This document shows, one piece after another, positions 8,005 through 36,887 of a stretch of DNA of 43,877 nt; position 1 is the stretch's first letter; each line of letters opens with the position of its first letter. The notes below the pieces were generated by a model. The model did not search any database, was not told the DNA's origin, and saw only the letters and a program-made list of their open reading frames with translations. The DNA lies in the IMG/VR virus record IMGVR_UViG_3300009168_000061, positions 1-43,877 of that record; one strand, 5' to 3'. This DNA is from a virus. Both the position numbers and the translations under genes were made by a program.

Positions 8005-8034
8005 TTTGTAGTTTAATCTTGGATTGTATCTTTG
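8005..8034 (+). promoter_or_regulatory. Bacteroidetes-type promoter of the leader RNA/winged-helix gene
   Basis: TTTG at 8005-8008 and TATCTTTG at 8027-8034 are separated by 18 bases, matching the -33/-7 consensus. Transcription is expected to begin near 8038-8041, directly before the folded leader and about 140 bases before the winged-helix coding frame. Confidence 0.75.
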
Positions 8035-8039
8035 GAGAG

Positions 8040-8136
8040 CAAATTCTTTTTGTGTGTGGTAGCGCTAAAAGGGTTTGATGGGTTTCCTGAGAATCCACCC
8101 AACCCCGAAAGTCTACCACCTTACGGGGTTTTTTAT
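8040..8136 (+). ncRNA. Candidate structured leader RNA or small RNA with pseudoknot/terminator
   Basis: The expected transcript can form four helices. GTGGTAG (8056-8062) pairs with CTACCAC (8113-8119), GGGTT (8071-8075) with AACCC (8101-8105), GGG (8080-8082) with CCC (8098-8100), and CCCCG (8103-8107) with CGGGG (8124-8128) followed by six T. The outermost helix and the terminator helix interleave as in an H-type pseudoknot. The inner GGGTT helix and the terminator compete for the same C residues. That is the usual layout of an attenuator or riboswitch, or of a free small RNA that ends at 8135. The fold is by eye and the ligand or target is unknown. Confidence 0.55.
8103..8136 (+). terminator. 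Rho-independent terminator or attenuator inside the leader
   Basis: CCCCG at 8103-8107 pairs with CGGGG at 8124-8128 and is followed by TTTTTTATTTT. It lies between the promoter at 8005-8034 and the coding frame at 8182, so read-through must be controlled for the gene to be expressed from this promoter. Confidence 0.6.
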
Positions 8137-8181
8137 TTTATCCTACCTTAAGAAGCATTTGCATTTAATTATTGCAATGCT

Positions 8182-8943
8182 TTGACTTGTCTATATAACA
8201 TAAAACTTCTCGCTTTCATACTTGCTCACAAAGCAAGGCGCAGAAGTTCATGTATATACGAACATGAAAAAATATATATATTATCTCAGGAAATTGGCAT
8301 CTCCAGAGGAGCGTATAAAAAGTATCTTGAATCATGCAGGAGGTTAGGACTCATAAATGAATGCAATGCATTTATTTCTATATCCAAAGCTCTGATGGTT
8401 CTATTCCCGGACAAATTCATCCCAAGAGACAATAAGCCTGATAAGACTCCACTTTATCGGGCCTCGTTTTTTAAGAATTTTCCGAAAAAAGCTGATTTCA
8501 AGTACTACAAGGATCTTGTTGAGTTTTCCATATTTCATGAAAATGGAATGGGCCAACAACATTACAATGAAAAAGATGAAGTAATTGACCGATTAAAGTC
8601 GAACCGTACTAAGGGAAATGATCTCGATGCTCTCAAAACCTTGAAAAAGAAACATGGTTTAGATAGTATTGAGGGTTTAAAAAGTATCGACACAAAGACG
8701 GAAATTCATTCAGGTAAGTTTCATTTAAGCAATCTGTTAGGCTGTTCTCCGACTACCGGGGCGAACAGGCTTAGGCGATGGCATAATGAGGGGAAAATCG
8801 AAAGAGAAATAAAAAAGGTTTTCTTTATAGGAGATCGTTCTTTCAGGAAATTCGATGCCCTGAAAGCTAAAGGTTATAAAATAGTGATTCCTATTGCAAC
8901 AGGTTTTATGGCTGTAATGGGTAGTATCATTACTTTCCTTTAG
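8182..8943 (+). CDS. Two-winged-helix DNA-binding protein (regulator or replication initiator-like)
   Basis: A 253-residue protein with an N-terminal winged helix-turn-helix (about residues 30-65, with SQEIGISRGAYKKYLESC). A second helix-turn-helix lies near residues 180-210 (LSNLLGCSPTTGANRLRRWH), and a hydrophobic tail follows (about 236-253). There is no in-frame ATG near the start; TTG at 8182 is the best start because the winged helix begins soon after it and a stop lies at 8149. An out-of-frame ATG-CTT-TGA sits just upstream at 8177. It is isolated from other operons, with its own promoter, folded leader and terminator. Candidate roles are late-gene activator or lysogeny regulator. Confidence 0.65.
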   Translation: MTCLYNIKLLAFILAHKARRRSSCIYEHEKIYILSQEIGISRGAYKKYLESCRRLGLINECNAFISISKALMVLFPDKFIPRDNKPDKTPLYRASFFKNFPKKADFKYYKDLVEFSIFHENGMGQQHYNEKDEVIDRLKSNRTKGNDLDALKTLKKKHGLDSIEGLKSIDTKTEIHSGKFHLSNLLGCSPTTGANRLRRWHNEGKIEREIKKVFFIGDRSFRKFDALKAKGYKIVIPIATGFMAVMGSIITFL

Positions 8944-8960
8944 TTGTATCTTAAAAGATC

Positions 8961-9000
8961 TGGTTCAACCCATTAACTATGGGATTGAATCATTTTTTTT
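8961..9000 (+). terminator. Terminator of the winged-helix gene
   Basis: A 13-base stem (8961-8973 with 8979-8992, one bulge and some G-U pairs) is followed directly by eight T. It lies 18 bases after the stop codon. Confidence 0.7.
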
Positions 9001-9165
9001 GTCCGAACATATTATTACATATTGTTTATTTTAATTCCAAAAAAAGTCTCTAATGAGGGAAATGTTTTCTGCTTGGATTGTTCACCCCTTAACTGGACGG
9101 TTGTGTGTTTCTATTATAGGTTCTTTTTTTGACAATACTTTATACAATACATGGGCTAATGAATA

Positions 9166-9347
9166 GTATCTCCGAATGGAGATACGGCTACACCCGGATA
9201 ACATGATCTATGGGTAAGGCTTCTGCCTTAGCAGAATGCCGTTACCGGATAGATCATAAATACACACAACACTAATCGTTGGGAGGATTCCTGAATAGGA
9301 ATCCGCACATAAGCAATTAACCCTCCCTCCAGAGTTAGAAAACACTC
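9166..9347 (+). ncRNA. Cluster of near-perfect hairpins: candidate structured RNA or DNA element
   Basis: The 515-base gap 8944-9458 has no convincing gene but holds four hairpins. H1 (9166-9185) has 8 perfect pairs closed by the loop GAAT. H2 (9203-9257) is a 55-base hairpin of about 23 pairs around the loop CTTA, with an alternative inner hairpin TAAGGC/GCCTTA. H3 (9285-9304) again has 8 perfect pairs with a GAAT loop. H4 (9331-9347) has AGAGT/ACTCT. A further GGGAGG/CCTCCC pairing spans H3. No consensus promoter was found for it on either strand, so RNA versus DNA function (origin, attachment or packaging site) is open. Strand is assigned by the flanking genes. Confidence 0.5.
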
Positions 9348-9424
9348 TCTGTTCCATTGCTTTATACATATTAAGTATTATGTAATATGAGTGGGCCGCG
9401 CAAAAAAAATTCCACTGCTTTTGC

Positions 9425-9455
9425 TTTGTCAATATTGTATATTTCGGTAAATTTG
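9425..9455 (+). promoter_or_regulatory. Consensus promoter of the RNase H-fold gene
   Basis: TTTG at 9425-9428 and TAAATTTG at 9448-9455 have a 19-base spacer, a full match to the Bacteroidetes consensus. The expected transcription start falls on or within three bases of the ATG at 9459, so the message may be leaderless. Confidence 0.75.
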
Positions 9456-9458
9456 CGT

Positions 9459-10028
9459 ATGGAAGCAGCGATCCAAAATAATATACCATATTCAGGACTT
9501 GTTCCTAATAAGTTGAACTTCAATACAAAGAAGCGTTCAAAAAGCAAGTTTGTACCTGATGTGAATATCTATATCACCTCCTTTGGTACATACGGAGCTT
9601 TTAATGGTAAAGGTTGTTATGCAGTAATAATGACACATAAAGGCCATGAGAAAACGATTTCCGAAACTTATAGATACACCTCTAAGACTAGAATGGAGCT
9701 ATTTGCGATTGTGGCCGCGCTAAAATCGCTCAAAATGCCTTGCCTTAATATCTCCATTCATTTACAAAATGAGGGGATTTATGAGGCTATTAAAGGTCGT
9801 AAGCCGTGGAGATGGGTAAGGCATTGTAAGAAAGGATTCGTAAATGATGACCTATGGTGGAGCTTCATTGAACTTGTTAAAGGCCACAAATACCGCCTGC
9901 ATCTGCTTTCTCAGAATCCAGATATAATTTACTCCCCCCGGTTGGAAAAGCTCAGTAAAGAGGCTTATTTCAATCGCGTTCCTAAAATAGATTCTCATAT
10001 CGAGGAACAGAATCAGGTTTTCGCATAA
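9459..10028 (+). CDS. RNase HI-fold protein with degenerate active site
   Basis: Counting from ATG 9459 (189 aa), residues 34-165 align by eye with RNase HI. There is a first strand VNIYITSFG, then GKGCYAVIM, then the helix KTRMELFAIVAALKSL with the catalytic Glu kept (E80), then the strand ISIHLQNEG. The first catalytic Asp (TDG in RNase HI) is replaced (ITSFG), the Asp of the fourth strand is Gln103, and the last Asp region reads RLEKLSKEA. Cleavage is therefore unlikely; RNA-DNA or RNA binding is the better guess. An upstream ATG at 9387 is possible but lies before the promoter. The gene stands alone between the hairpin cluster and a bidirectional terminator. Confidence 0.7.
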   Translation: MEAAIQNNIPYSGLVPNKLNFNTKKRSKSKFVPDVNIYITSFGTYGAFNGKGCYAVIMTHKGHEKTISETYRYTSKTRMELFAIVAALKSLKMPCLNISIHLQNEGIYEAIKGRKPWRWVRHCKKGFVNDDLWWSFIELVKGHKYRLHLLSQNPDIIYSPRLEKLSKEAYFNRVPKIDSHIEEQNQVFA

Positions 10029-10031
10029 ATG

Positions 10032-10063
10032 AAAAAGGATGAGTTTTTACCTCATCCTTTTTT
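10032..10063. terminator. Bidirectional terminator after the RNase H-fold gene
   Basis: AAAAAGGATGAG (10032-10043) is the perfect complement of the sequence at 10051-10062, with T runs on both sides, so it can stop transcription from either direction. Confidence 0.8.
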
Positions 10064-12035: not shown

Positions 12036-12626
12036 TTACTTATCCCCCTGTTTTCCGTTATCCTTAACGATCTCTTTAATCAGGAGCAGCTTCAGGTAGT
12101 GTTCCGGAAACTCCCTTTTGATCAGATCCTCCCTTTCTTTGGACATAATGATAAAATTATTAATGCTATTATCGTAAACCAGAACCTCACCGCATTGAGA
12201 GCAAAGAGCGACATCATCAAGATCATCCATCTTATGTCTCCACCGCTCCGTATCTATGAACATAACGTGATCACATTTCGGGCAGGATGAAATAGAAGTA
12301 GTAGATAAAATACCCTCCTCCTCATCATCCTCCGCTATCTGCTCTTTGTGAGTCATTATATAAAACATCGTAATCTCCCTCCTCTCCAGATTTAAAGGAC
12401 TAACAGGCATACCCTCAAGAGCTGCAACTTTAATCGCTACCAGATAACGGAAGCAAGTCAACATAACATCATCCATTTTCGGATTCTTTTTCAGGAGCAA
12501 TTCATTCAGGAAATCGTTTCCCTCTTCAGTTGTAAAACCTGTTCCTTTGAATTTCCTACTGAAAAGTTTTGCTAAACCGGATGTGATTCGACTAACTTTT
12601 TCTGAAAATAATTCTATTGATTCCAT
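12036..12626 (-). CDS. Zinc-ribbon protein of unknown function (196 aa)
   Basis: It carries two CxxC pairs about 27 residues apart (SCPKCDHV and LCSQCGEV, about residues 113-145), forming a zinc ribbon after a helical N-terminal half. It starts at the TAATG shared with the ParB-like gene, so both are co-translated. Possible roles are nucleic-acid or protein binding in regulation. Exact family unknown. Confidence 0.65.
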   Translation of the reverse strand: MESIELFSEKVSRITSGLAKLFSRKFKGTGFTTEEGNDFLNELLLKKNPKMDDVMLTCFRYLVAIKVAALEGMPVSPLNLERREITMFYIMTHKEQIAEDDEEEGILSTTSISSCPKCDHVMFIDTERWRHKMDDLDDVALCSQCGEVLVYDNSINNFIIMSKEREDLIKREFPEHYLKLLLIKEIVKDNGKQGDK

Positions 12627-13360
12627 TAGTAAAATCTTACTTTATCTCTTGTTTGGAAATTATATATATCCTCGATTATGAGCAGATAGTTCTTAATGGT
12701 AAAACAGTTTGTCAATGCTGATGGCTGCTTTGAAAGCTGATGGACAAAGAAAGAGTGATTATAATCCTTATGGTTGAAAAGATGTCTCATTGTATTTATA
12801 AAAGTCCTCCTCTGGTACTGCTTATAATATTGACCTACCTCTACGATCTGGTCCGCTAACTTAAAGGCATTAGCAGAATCAACAATCTTCAGATCCCCGC
12901 GTTTCAGATCCCTTTCTGCATACTTCTTATTCTCTCCAACCAATAGGGCTAATGTCTCCCTGACGGCAAAACCATATTTCTTTAAGAAATCACGGAACAA
13001 TATATAATCCTCTATTCCCTGATCAGCATAAGAGTTTACGAAATCAAAGAGATTCCAGTGTTTCATGTTCTCATTCATCTGGTGAACCTCATTGATACCA
13101 TATCCCTCGACTGTGATAAAGTAAACAGGTAAGTTCATCTCTTTCCAGATCGCCAAACGATGCTGACCATCTATAACCTGAAAGAATTCATTAACCAGAA
13201 TAGGACTCATCAGGGGTTTAATCAACATTGATACCCTGATCCGATTCAGATTGTGAGGACACATTTTCCTATTGCCTAAAACATCCTGAAAGAGATCGTA
13301 GTTCTTTGTCGACTGGATCTCTCCAATTGTTTTAATTCCGGGTGAAGCGATTGTCTGCAT
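12626..13360 (-). CDS. ParB/Srx-like domain protein
   Basis: Residues about 30-85 contain the ParB/sulfiredoxin signature, with conserved VIDGQHRLAIWKEMNLPVYF. The remaining 160 residues are helical. Such ParB-like proteins in phages act as nucleases or DNA-binding factors rather than classical partition proteins. It is located downstream of TerL and far from the ParA gene at 36249, so a partition role is not implied by context. The leader contains a doubled CTTAAAATCTTAAA motif. Confidence 0.75.
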   Translation of the reverse strand: MQTIASPGIKTIGEIQSTKNYDLFQDVLGNRKMCPHNLNRIRVSMLIKPLMSPILVNEFFQVIDGQHRLAIWKEMNLPVYFITVEGYGINEVHQMNENMKHWNLFDFVNSYADQGIEDYILFRDFLKKYGFAVRETLALLVGENKKYAERDLKRGDLKIVDSANAFKLADQIVEVGQYYKQYQRRTFINTMRHLFNHKDYNHSFFVHQLSKQPSALTNCFTIKNYLLIIEDIYNFQTRDKVRFY

Positions 13361-25645: not shown

Positions 25646-25960
25646 ATGTCAAGTAAAAACGAGATACTGGAAAGTATTGAAATCTCCGTATCTGATCTGT
25701 TGGAGATAACAGAAAGGCAGGCAATAAAACTATTTAACTCTGGCAAGGTAGTTTATGTTTGCACGGATGATAATAAACCTACTCAGGGGTTTAACTGTTT
25801 CTGGATGTGTAAAACGATTCAGGACGCCTCTTTAAATTATCATTGCTTAGATATTTTTAATATCACAATTGAGGAGCAAATTAGATTCATCCGGACTCAT
25901 CAAGCCGAACCAATCTATTTTTACACATTGAATTCTACTCAGCTCTGGATAGTTGATTAA
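25646..25960 (+). CDS. Protein of unknown function (104 aa)
   Basis: ATG 25646 is preferred over 25604 because it follows an AT-rich leader (CTCTTAAA). The segment SDLLEITERQAIKLFNSGKV resembles a small helix-turn-helix. No family is recognised. It ends 8 bases before a terminator. Confidence 0.55.
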   Translation: MSSKNEILESIEISVSDLLEITERQAIKLFNSGKVVYVCTDDNKPTQGFNCFWMCKTIQDASLNYHCLDIFNITIEEQIRFIRTHQAEPIYFYTLNSTQLWIVD

Positions 25961-25967
25961 ACAAAAT

Positions 25968-25996
25968 AAAGGTTAACCGTCTGGTTAGCCTTTTGG
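25968..25996 (+). terminator. Terminator at the end of the early operon
   Basis: AAAGGTTAACC pairs with GGTTAGCCTTT around the loop GTCT. Confidence 0.7.
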
Positions 25997-26003
25997 CGTT
26001 GGT

Positions 26004-26056
26004 CCTAACTTAAAAACTTGTTAGCTCATTTGAGTTAATGAGTTTTTAAGTTTAGG
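26004..26056. repeat. 53-base near-perfect palindrome
   Basis: CCTAACTTAAAAACT (26004-26018) matches AGTTTTTAAGTTTAGG (26041-26056) with one extra base. Inside it TTAGCTCA pairs with TGAGTTAA around two T. It could extrude as a cruciform or fold as a long RNA hairpin. The arms carry the CTTAAAAACTT motif found before many genes here. Confidence 0.65.
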
Positions 26057-26100
26057 CGTTAATGTGCTTTTCCGGATTGTTTGCGGATCTTTTAACATTG

Positions 26101-26115
26101 CCCTACATTGTAGGG
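26101..26115. promoter_or_regulatory. Perfect 15-base palindrome, operator-like
   Basis: CCCTACATTGTAGGG has 7-base arms around one base and lies 15 bases before the gene at 26130. Its length and symmetry suit a dimeric repressor. Nothing else identifies it. Confidence 0.4.
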
Positions 26116-26129
26116 TAAAAGTTGTGTGA

Positions 26130-26327
26130 ATGCGTCAAAATGAGATCTTAAAAGCTGTTAGTATGTTAGCTGCCATTACTTGCGGTTGCCTGTTTTGTTT
26201 CGGTTTATGTAAGCTCCTTTATTGTCCGGACTTGTCCTTTAACTATCGGTTTTATTATATCCTTTCATGCTTCTTTAATTTGGCAGGATTCGGATTTAAT
26301 ATCCGGAATTTCTTTTACATAAAGTAA
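26130..26327 (+). CDS. Two-span membrane protein (65 aa)
   Basis: Residues 9-29 (Cys-rich CGCLFCFGLC inside) and 42-58 form two membrane segments with a short loop. It stands alone between the palindrome region and the repeat cluster. Function unknown. Confidence 0.55.
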   Translation: MRQNEILKAVSMLAAITCGCLFCFGLCKLLYCPDLSFNYRFYYILSCFFNLAGFGFNIRNFFYIK

Positions 26328-26429: not shown

Positions 26430-26561
26430 ATGAGTTTGCATGAGGACCATCACGATTTTAGGCCCAATCGGAAAAGAACCAATCGGAAAAGAACCAGAAA
26501 ACGGGTAATCGGAAAAGAACCAATCGGAAAAGAAATAAAAAAAATATTTTATGAACACTGA
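26430..26561 (+). CDS. Doubtful Arg/Lys-rich peptide spanning direct repeats (43 aa)
   Basis: An open frame with an AT-rich leader that ends 11 bases inside the next gene. It is made largely by the 13-base repeats: the first two copies read as NRKR, the last two as IGKE because the frame shifts between them. That argues the DNA repeat is what is conserved, so the peptide may be accidental. Confidence 0.25.
   Translation: MSLHEDHHDFRPNRKRTNRKRTRKRVIGKEPIGKEIKKIFYEH
26466..26534. repeat. Four copies of AATCGGAAAAGAA (iteron- or arm-site-like)
   Basis: Identical 13-base copies start at 26466, 26481, 26507 and 26522, that is two pairs each with 15-base spacing and 26 bases between the inner copies. 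The 222-base gap 26328-26550 holds little else. They lie 490 bases before the integrase and just before the 26551 gene. They could be integrase arm-type sites, replication iterons or an operator array. Confidence 0.7.
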
Positions 26562-29413: not shown

Positions 29414-29608
29414 TTATGTCTTAGTACCATTCCACATATCATATGTTATATGATTTGCGATCCTCATCAGTTTATTACCCATTATTCCTGCTCCCTGACC
29501 ATGAGTTAATCCAGTGAACTTTTTTGTTTCAGGATCAAAGGTTGGTTTGATCCCCTTCTTTTTCATGTAAACAATCGTTTCCCGGATCTCATTAGCTGAT
29601 GGCTTCAT
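29414..29608 (-). CDS. Small basic protein of the leftward switch operon (64 aa)
   Basis: The pattern MKPSANEIRETIVYMKKKGI, then HGQGAGIMGNKLMR, suggests a small DNA-binding or RNA-binding protein. It faces the rightward HTH gene across a 161-base control region with repeated sites. Function inferred from context only. Confidence 0.5.
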   Translation of the reverse strand: MKPSANEIRETIVYMKKKGIKPTFDPETKKFTGLTHGQGAGIMGNKLMRIANHITYDMWNGTKT

Positions 29609-29664
29609 AAACTGATTTGTTTATATAAAATTACGCAATAATGCAGGAGGATTTATCTAATAAG

Positions 29665-29708
29665 TTTGGTAAATTATCAGTATTTGGTAACTTTATAAAG
29701 AATTTACC
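29665..29708. promoter_or_regulatory. Three operator-like repeats in the divergent switch
   Basis: TTTGGTAAATTAT (29665-29677) and TTTGGTAACTTTAT (29683-29696) are direct copies 18 bases apart. A third, inverted copy is at 29695-29708, centred on the palindrome CTTTATAAAG. This is the arrangement of phage repressor operators. The likely binder is the HTH protein at 29770 or its divergent partner. Confidence 0.55.
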
Positions 29709-29769
29709 TCTATAAATTACTGTTCTACAATGATCCTTTGCATACAAATACCACATTACAAATTTTAAT

Positions 29770-29970
29770 ATGGAAAAAGAATTAGCATTCCTGAGAAAGA
29801 ATAAAAAATACATAAAGCATACTGCAATTGCGAAGGAGTTAGGAATTGATATTGCTACATTTAGCAGGATCATCAATAAGACAAAAGATACCAGAGGCTA
29901 TGAAACGGATTTACCGGAAAAGTATAATGTTAAACTGAAGCAGATTATAAATACTATATTTAAGTGCTAG
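29770..29970 (+). CDS. Small helix-turn-helix regulator, Cro/Xre-like (66 aa)
   Basis: Residues 16-40 (KHTAIAKELGIDIATFSRIIN) form a clear helix-turn-helix. The protein is about Cro-sized. It is divergent from two leftward genes with operator-like repeats between, so it is the best candidate for the lysis-lysogeny switch. The promoter was not matched to consensus. Confidence 0.7.
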   Translation: MEKELAFLRKNKKYIKHTAIAKELGIDIATFSRIINKTKDTRGYETDLPEKYNVKLKQIINTIFKC

Positions 29971-30002
29971 ATTATAGGTTGATGTATGTGGCAAAAGTGA
30001 AA

Positions 30003-30025
30003 GGGGGATTCGTCCTCCTTTTTTT
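30003..30025 (+). terminator. Terminator of the HTH gene
   Basis: GGGGGA and TCCTCC around TTCG are followed by seven T. Confidence 0.75.
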
Positions 30026-30072
30026 ATAGTATAAAATTGTAGTATTTTTATATTATAAATTTAACAGTGTTT

Positions 30073-35192: not shown

Positions 35193-35720
35193 ATGCTTCA
35201 GCAAACTATCATTTTCTTAGAATTTGAAGGAGTATTAACCTCACACAGAACAGGGGGAAAGAACATTGATCCTATTGCTGTTCATTTTATAAATGAGGTT
35301 TGCAGGATCACCGGGAGTCAAATTGTCATTTCATCACACTGGAGATTAAGCCGTCCGGGTAGCATGTTCAGAAGCATGTTCGGAGATCATTTAAATGAAG
35401 ATTGGGCTACTCTGGACCTGAGCAGGAGGTATGTAGATAAAGTGAGAGGTATGGAGGTTGACGCATGGCTAAGAAAGCATGAAGGATATAAATTTGTCAT
35501 CCTCGATAATGAATTCAATTACCTCGATGAGCAGTTACCATACCTGATACAACCAAATTCAGACAATGGCCTGATATGGCAGGATATGTATATGATATTA
35601 CAGTTCTTTGGAATGGAATATATTGATATGGAAGCCCGGAACATCCTGATAACTCCTGAAATGTTTAAGGATGAGAGTTTCGATCTTAAAACCAAACAAA
35701 GAATCACTTTGTCACCTTAA
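35193..35720 (+). CDS. HAD-like protein (SAK-type) with Glu-x-Glu in place of Asp-x-Asp
   Basis: The fold resembles HAD domains of the swiss-army-knife RNA-repair type. Motif I is at residues 6-15 (IIFLEFEGVL), motif II is VISSHWR and a late motif is FVILDNEFNYLDE. In the family motif I is normally FLDxDGVL, and the first Asp is the phosphoryl-accepting nucleophile. Here both Asp are Glu (Glu10, Glu12), so the protein may be inactive or altered. Its place beside replication genes would fit nucleic-acid end processing. The terminator follows 28 bases later. Confidence 0.7.
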   Translation: MLQQTIIFLEFEGVLTSHRTGGKNIDPIAVHFINEVCRITGSQIVISSHWRLSRPGSMFRSMFGDHLNEDWATLDLSRRYVDKVRGMEVDAWLRKHEGYKFVILDNEFNYLDEQLPYLIQPNSDNGLIWQDMYMILQFFGMEYIDMEARNILITPEMFKDESFDLKTKQRITLSP

Positions 35721-36248: not shown

Positions 36249-36887
36249 ATGATCATAAGTATTAGCTCACTCAAAGGTGGCGTTGGTAAGTCAACGATAG
36301 CCCAAAATTTAGCAGTTTGTTTTGCCAGAAATGGTTACAAAGTTTGCATTATAGATTCTGATGCAAACCAATCATCTCTCAAATGGAGTTCACTTAGAAC
36401 TAACGAGGAGTTTAGTATTCCTGCATATGGTTTGCCTGATGGAAACGAATTAGGTAAGAACGCGAGTCACCTTGATAAGCTGTATGACGTAGTGATCATT
36501 GATGGTACTCCTAACCTTTCAAAGCTCACCTCCAAGATCATTCTAACCTCTAATTTTGTGTTTATCCCGGTCCTGCCATCTGGTATGGATGTTTGGGCTA
36601 CCCGGAAATTCTTAGATCATTACCAGAACATTATTGAGGAGAGCGAAACAAATATTCCCGCTTACTTTATAATGAATAAATTCAGGCCAAATACAAGCCT
36701 TTCAATGGAGGTTAAAGAATGTTTAGCTGAGTTTGAGATCCCGGTAATGGAAACTTGCCTGAAGGATCGCGTAGCTTATGGTGAAGCGGTAATAAAAGGA
36801 TCTGGAGTTTATGAACACAGAAACAAAGCAGCCAAAGAGGAGATAACGAATCTCTTTAATGAGGTAATGGAGATAATCACAAAATAA
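36249..36887 (+). CDS. parA: ParA-family partition ATPase
   Basis: A 212-residue small (type Ib) ParA. The deviant Walker A motif is at residues 9-16 (KGGVGKST, with signature Lys9), switch I is Asp40 (DSDANQSS) and Walker B is VVIIDGTP. It would move plasmid-state copies before division with the RHH protein encoded next. This points to a phage-plasmid or an extrachromosomal prophage phase. No N-terminal helix-turn-helix is present. Confidence 0.9.
   Translation: MIISISSLKGGVGKSTIAQNLAVCFARNGYKVCIIDSDANQSSLKWSSLRTNEEFSIPAYGLPDGNELGKNASHLDKLYDVVIIDGTPNLSKLTSKIILTSNFVFIPVLPSGMDVWATRKFLDHYQNIIEESETNIPAYFIMNKFRPNTSLSMEVKECLAEFEIPVMETCLKDRVAYGEAVIKGSGVYEHRNKAAKEEITNLFNEVMEIITK

Follow-up and report, generated by a model that had tools for sequence, protein, structure and literature searches.

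Three hairpins clustered between positions 9150 and 9360 of this phage form an array that is real, non-random and orphan, with a fold well above chance. We tentatively take it to be an orphan structured non-coding RNA element of an accessory cassette, most likely as plus-strand RNA; its transcription, strand and any function are inferred.

The window is the whole IMG/VR virus record of 43,877 bases, and its phage genes include those for terminase, tape measure, tyrosine integrase, RecT, a DnaB-like helicase, RusA and ParA. We take the phage to be a siphophage of Bacteroidota. Perfect Bacteroidota promoters (TTTG-N18/19-TAnnTTTG; for the consensus and the spacing to the transcription start site, see PMC6847099) occur four times on the plus strand and not at all on the minus strand, and relatives of the terminase lie chiefly in Bacteroidota genomes, which together point to a Bacteroidota bacterium as the host. 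A ParA-like ATPase (36249-36887), a ParB-like protein (12626-13360, by PHROG only) and the tyrosine integrase make a phage-plasmid lifestyle possible. The record also encodes a HAD_SAK_2 domain protein (35193-35720, E 2e-16; in Pfam, the HAD domain in Swiss Army Knife RNA repair proteins).

The hairpins and their fold

The 443-nt gap that contains the array has no annotated gene, and only one such gap of the record is longer (29443-30066, 624 nt). The elements of the array are:

9166..9185, plus strand: H1, a perfect 8-bp stem, GTATCTCC-GAAT-GGAGATAC, with loop GAAT (-10.7 kcal/mol, z -6.2)
9203..9257, plus strand: H2, a 55-nt hairpin of 9+5+3+6 = 23 pairs with loop CUUA (-28.5 kcal/mol, z -5.9)
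9285..9304, plus strand: H3, a perfect 8-bp stem, GGATTCCT-GAAT-AGGAATCC, with loop GAAT (z -3.7)
9331..9348, plus strand: a "fourth stem" of 5 bp (z -1.4, 26/200 shuffles equally good), at chance level
9100-9108 with 9262-9270, plus strand: a possible long-range helix, GTTGTGTGT/ACACACAAC, enclosing H1 and H2

Here the z-scores of H1, H2 and H3 are those of each hairpin folded alone, and dinucleotide shuffles provide the background for the array. Folding bears out the preliminary description of H1 and H3 as perfect GAAT-loop stems and of H2 as a hairpin of about 23 pairs, in the order 9 bp, a 1x2 internal loop, 5 bp (GGUAA/UUACC), a 3' 1-nt bulge, 3 bp, a second 3' 1-nt bulge and 6 bp. An alternative inner fold that had been proposed for H2 (TAAGGC/GCCTTA) is present but much weaker, at about -14.9 against -28.5 kcal/mol, and the small fourth stem that was to follow H3 does not stand out from shuffled sequence. 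All 39 pairs of H1 to H3 are Watson-Crick, with no G-U pair, and the two short hairpins share the GAAT loop while their arms differ.

Taken as a unit, the 211 nt from 9150 to 9360 have a plus-strand folding energy of -69 kcal/mol, where shuffles average -46 (z -5.8); the minus strand gives z -5.25 and single-stranded DNA z -6.7, and in none of the three cases was any shuffle equally good. Since single perfect 8-bp stems occur 2-11 times per shuffled window, against somewhat more in the real one, what stands out is the clustering together with H2, and not H1 or H3 alone. The long-range helix is not significant when the hairpins are held fixed (5/80 partial shuffles equally good), and a closed 282-nt RNA (9063-9344) was set aside, its closing helices also failing to reach significance with the hairpins fixed (5/80 on each strand).

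The cassette and its RNase H-fold gene

The array separates two plus-strand genes that form a cassette surrounded by minus-strand late genes, with the terminase block on one side and the tape measure gene on the other:

8182..8943, plus strand: upstream cassette gene, 253 aa, of no known family
8953..9000, plus strand: intrinsic terminator of the upstream gene, a long stem followed by a T run
9425..9455, plus strand: perfect Bacteroidota promoter of the RNase H-fold gene, TTTG-N19-TAAATTTG, downstream of the hairpins
9459..10028, plus strand: gene for an RNase HI-fold protein, 189 aa if it starts at the ATG at 9459, with the ORF open from 9387
10032..10062, plus strand: terminator of the RNase H-fold gene, a 12-bp stem and a T run

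The terminator and the promoter between which the array had been placed are thus both present. In the five related phages that were checked gene by gene (L002, L035, L036, L038 and L039) the cassette is absent, and because the same interval in all five runs from small post-terminase genes to the tape measure gene with no opposite-strand gene, the cassette appears to be an accessory ('moron'-like) insertion in this phage. The 8182-8943 protein is weakly similar to AbiEi (E 0.005) and has two possible winged-helix stretches and, judged by eye, a hydrophobic C-terminus; its structure prediction (pLDDT 36) gave no usable model, and no relative was found in IMG/VR, sampled GTDB genomes, or phage or plasmid records. 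Just ahead of this gene, the region 8005-8140 opens with a perfect Bacteroidota promoter (8005-8034), about 100 nt on from which is an intrinsic terminator (CCCCG..CGGGG, T run), and the terminator loop contains CTACCAC, the complement of GTGGTAG near the 5' end of the region; the region is a candidate short RNA, or attenuator leader for the 8182-8943 gene.

The preliminary description of the downstream gene as one of RNase H fold with a damaged active site is upheld. The protein matches Pfam PF00075 (RNase_H) at E 2.5e-8, and its AlphaFold model (pLDDT 78, exceeding 90 in much of the core) finds as its best PDB match an RNase HI, 1jl2, at E 1e-13. In an alignment with nine Bacteroidota RNase HI enzymes, in which the catalytic residues are invariant and for which we take column numbers and residue roles to be those of E. 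coli RNase HI, the catalytic columns read D10F, D70Q, H124N and D134E with only E48 kept, and the substrate contacts read N16F, N44K and N45T. The protein thus has the fold and sequence family of RNase HI (PF00075, PHROG 531), but other residues stand in place of three of the four catalytic carboxylates, of His124 and of the asparagines that contact the substrate. We expect it to be incapable of cutting hybrids and probably changed in how it recognises them. Its relatives are distant RNase HI proteins only, at about 24-36% identity, and those aligned keep the active site: a scan of IMG/VR and GTDB with an RNase H alignment retained 80 loci at 24-34% identity, 17 of which, once aligned, keep an active-type motif, and no other catalytically dead relative was seen among those aligned. 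The literature searched on dead RNase H proteins in phages held nothing on point. Upstream of phage RNase H genes a fold below -3 was obtained at 46/79 loci against 26/73 for a downstream control, figures from which we draw nothing, the energy line having been fitted on a low-G+C genome and the loci being redundant.

A second array and the search for relatives

The preliminary description held that nothing else in the window has such a density of stems, and this does not survive. Among 1,093 segments of 160 nt, the one starting at 25961 (25961-26120) has the lowest energy for its G+C, that at 9161 coming next outside this region, and no local fold in the window is stronger than that of 25940-26135 (z -7.1). 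The second array comprises:

25968..25993, plus strand: an 11-bp hairpin, terminator-like, 7 nt past the stop codon of the 25604-25960 gene
25996..26065, plus strand: a long hairpin with loop AUUU (z -8.6)
26098..26118, plus strand: a 9-bp hairpin

It is intergenic, about 0.9 kb upstream of the integrase gene. Its long hairpin runs 7 bp, a 1x2 internal loop, CCUAA/UUAGG, a 3' 1-nt bulge, 19 bp and the tetraloop, and contains G-U pairs, four of them in the base stem. H2 and this hairpin have in common a base stem, a 1x2 internal loop, an SSUAA/UUASS helix, a 3' one-base bulge and a tetraloop, a likeness noticed post hoc in a motif read off these same two sites, which makes it a lead, not a test. 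In its exact form (base stem of 5 bp or more, 1x2 loop, SSUAA/UUASS, 3' bulge) the motif occurs at these two sites only when both strands of about 2.3 Mb of retrieved sequence are scanned; loosened to any 5-bp middle helix, it occurs at 21 sites in the 2.3 Mb, with about 0.4 expected in the window. Further on, in the gap preceding the 26551 gene, is a degenerate 15-nt tandem repeat of five copies (26464-26534, CCAATCGGAAAAGAA); several DnaA boxes with one mismatch lie no more than about 500 nt away, and the region is an iteron-like candidate.

Searches of IMG/VR viral contigs, sampled GTDB genomes, phage records and plasmid records returned no relative of the array, although such absence is not proof. 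The cassette proteins were sought by exact-word and degenerate scans of IMG/VR and GTDB and by tblastn in phage and plasmid records, and no second locus pairing an RNase H-fold gene with such an array was found. Blastn of the gap gave weak hits only, which were short, scattered over different parts of the query and without the array; a single-sequence covariance model run under strict filters on 395 Bacteroidota genomes, and on 96 related loci, detected no homologue of the array; and the five matches to the H2 core pattern in IMG/VR, like the one match to pattern P0001 in Bacteroidota genomes, were all chance. Rfam gave no match at the gathering score and nothing overlapping the array even at E 10.

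Type III toxin-antitoxin systems such as ToxIN place a structured RNA upstream of a protein gene, that of a ToxN-type endoRNase. The array likewise precedes the protein gene of a mobile cassette, but has no tandem repeats and no RNA-gene terminator, and the protein has an RNase HI fold and is not a ToxN-type endoRNase. Phages also encode structured non-coding RNAs of unknown role, which the array resembles in being intergenic, strongly folded and non-coding; those families, however, have many homologues with covariation, whereas the array is a single copy with no homologue. Candidate structured RNAs have been collected by comparative genomics (PMC2864571), and the literature searched on non-coding RNA of Bacteroidetes phages held nothing on point. 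Like an integron attC site (PMC8946536), H2 is imperfectly paired, having a base stem and an internal loop and, on one side, extra-helical bases; the loop is the 1x2 internal loop, and the extra-helical bases are the two 3' 1-nt bulges. It differs in lacking the conserved core boxes, AAC/GTT being absent from its base stem ATGATCTAT/ATAGATCAT; no integron cassette array was seen, and G-U pairs occur in the hairpin that shares the layout of H2. The attC reading is unsupported, and the tests made here place the array neither in a known RNA family nor among attC sites.

RNA, punctuation or DNA site

Our tentative reading of the array as a structured plus-strand RNA element draws on a fold far beyond that of dinucleotide shuffles, on the length of the gene-free gap, and on the purine-rich loop GAAU that both 8-bp stems present on the plus strand. 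The unpaired positions of that strand are also A-rich (22 A against 12 T), though not significantly so (p 0.12), and the second plus-strand intergenic array contains a hairpin of the same layout whose G-U pairs are sensible only as plus-strand RNA. On this view transcription would start at a weak or regulated promoter somewhere after the 8953-9000 terminator and before H1, and the RNA would fold into three stable stem-loops that shield it or present it to a protein; it might be a small RNA, or else form the long structured leader of the RNase H-fold gene downstream. Against this, no Bacteroidota promoter with one mismatch or fewer was found upstream of H1 on the plus strand or near the array on the minus strand, regulated phage promoters being outside that scan, and the terminator scan found none after the array before 10032, so that by these scans the array lacks the promoter and terminator of its own expected of an independent small RNA. 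The RNase H-fold gene, moreover, has its own promoter downstream of the hairpins; because the predicted transcription start site is at about 9460, at or beside the ATG, its main mRNA should lack them. An RNA role for the array needs an unrecognised or regulated promoter, or read-through. The lack of G-U pairs among the 39, the closing helices that are not significant, and the lack of homologues, which leaves no covariation, and of an Rfam match also count against an RNA.

It is possible, if rather doubtful, that the hairpins serve as transcription punctuation or insulation on either strand, stopping or pausing transcription or stabilising the ends of transcripts; the stems would then be individually ordinary and would do nothing as a group. 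A terminator and a promoter flank the gap, H1 scores as terminator-like on the minus strand, the strongest intergenic fold of the relative L039 (at 6361) is a hairpin directly past a gene end, and the first hairpin of the second array is similarly placed after its stop codon. Neither H2 nor H3 is followed by a T run on either strand, however, the terminator-like tail of H1 is weak, and three stems within 140 nt, of which two share a loop, exceed the usual need for punctuation.

A site acting at the DNA level, through palindromes or single-strand hairpins for replication, recombination or regulator binding (a folded recombination site, a single-strand origin or an operator pair), seems to us unlikely. 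With only Watson-Crick pairs both strands fold equally, the single-stranded DNA fold is strong, no clear promoter serves the array, the base stem, internal loop and same-side bulges of H2 resemble a folded attC site, and the phage has both a tyrosine integrase and ParA. The missing core boxes of H2 and the four G-U base-stem pairs of its look-alike argue against a DNA site, and since the arms of H1 and H3 differ these are not two copies of one operator. As to an origin, the GC skew minimum is near 20 kb, away from the array, and only two 1-mismatch DnaA boxes lie nearby (9362 and 9560), without a cluster and at a density matched elsewhere; no terminal or tandem repeats were found at the array, and the DnaA-origin, terminal-repeat and tandem-repeat readings are unsupported.

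That the array is a functionless remnant, the debris of an acquired or decaying cassette beside a decayed RNase H gene, is improbable: the absence of the cassette from the five relatives, the lost catalytic residues and the want of any relatives would suit it, but drift would destroy perfect stems first, and the RNase H-fold gene has an unbroken frame, a perfect promoter and a terminator, its product being predicted to fold well.

Binding of the array RNA by the dead RNase H is conceivable but unsupported, adjacency being the sole link. We give very little credence to the more elaborate proposal that the dead RNase HI is a dedicated binder of the phage's own structured RNA, with the bulged SSUAA/UUASS hairpin (9203-9257 and 25996-26065) as the recognition element of a regulatory or counter-defence system.

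The array is at present an orphan, and its worth is as a lead for expression data. If it is transcribed into RNA, a Bacteroidota phage would have a candidate structured RNA encoded beside an RNase H fold that has kept its shape and lost its active site; repurposed dead nucleases, which bind and do not cut, are of interest for phage regulation and counter-defence.
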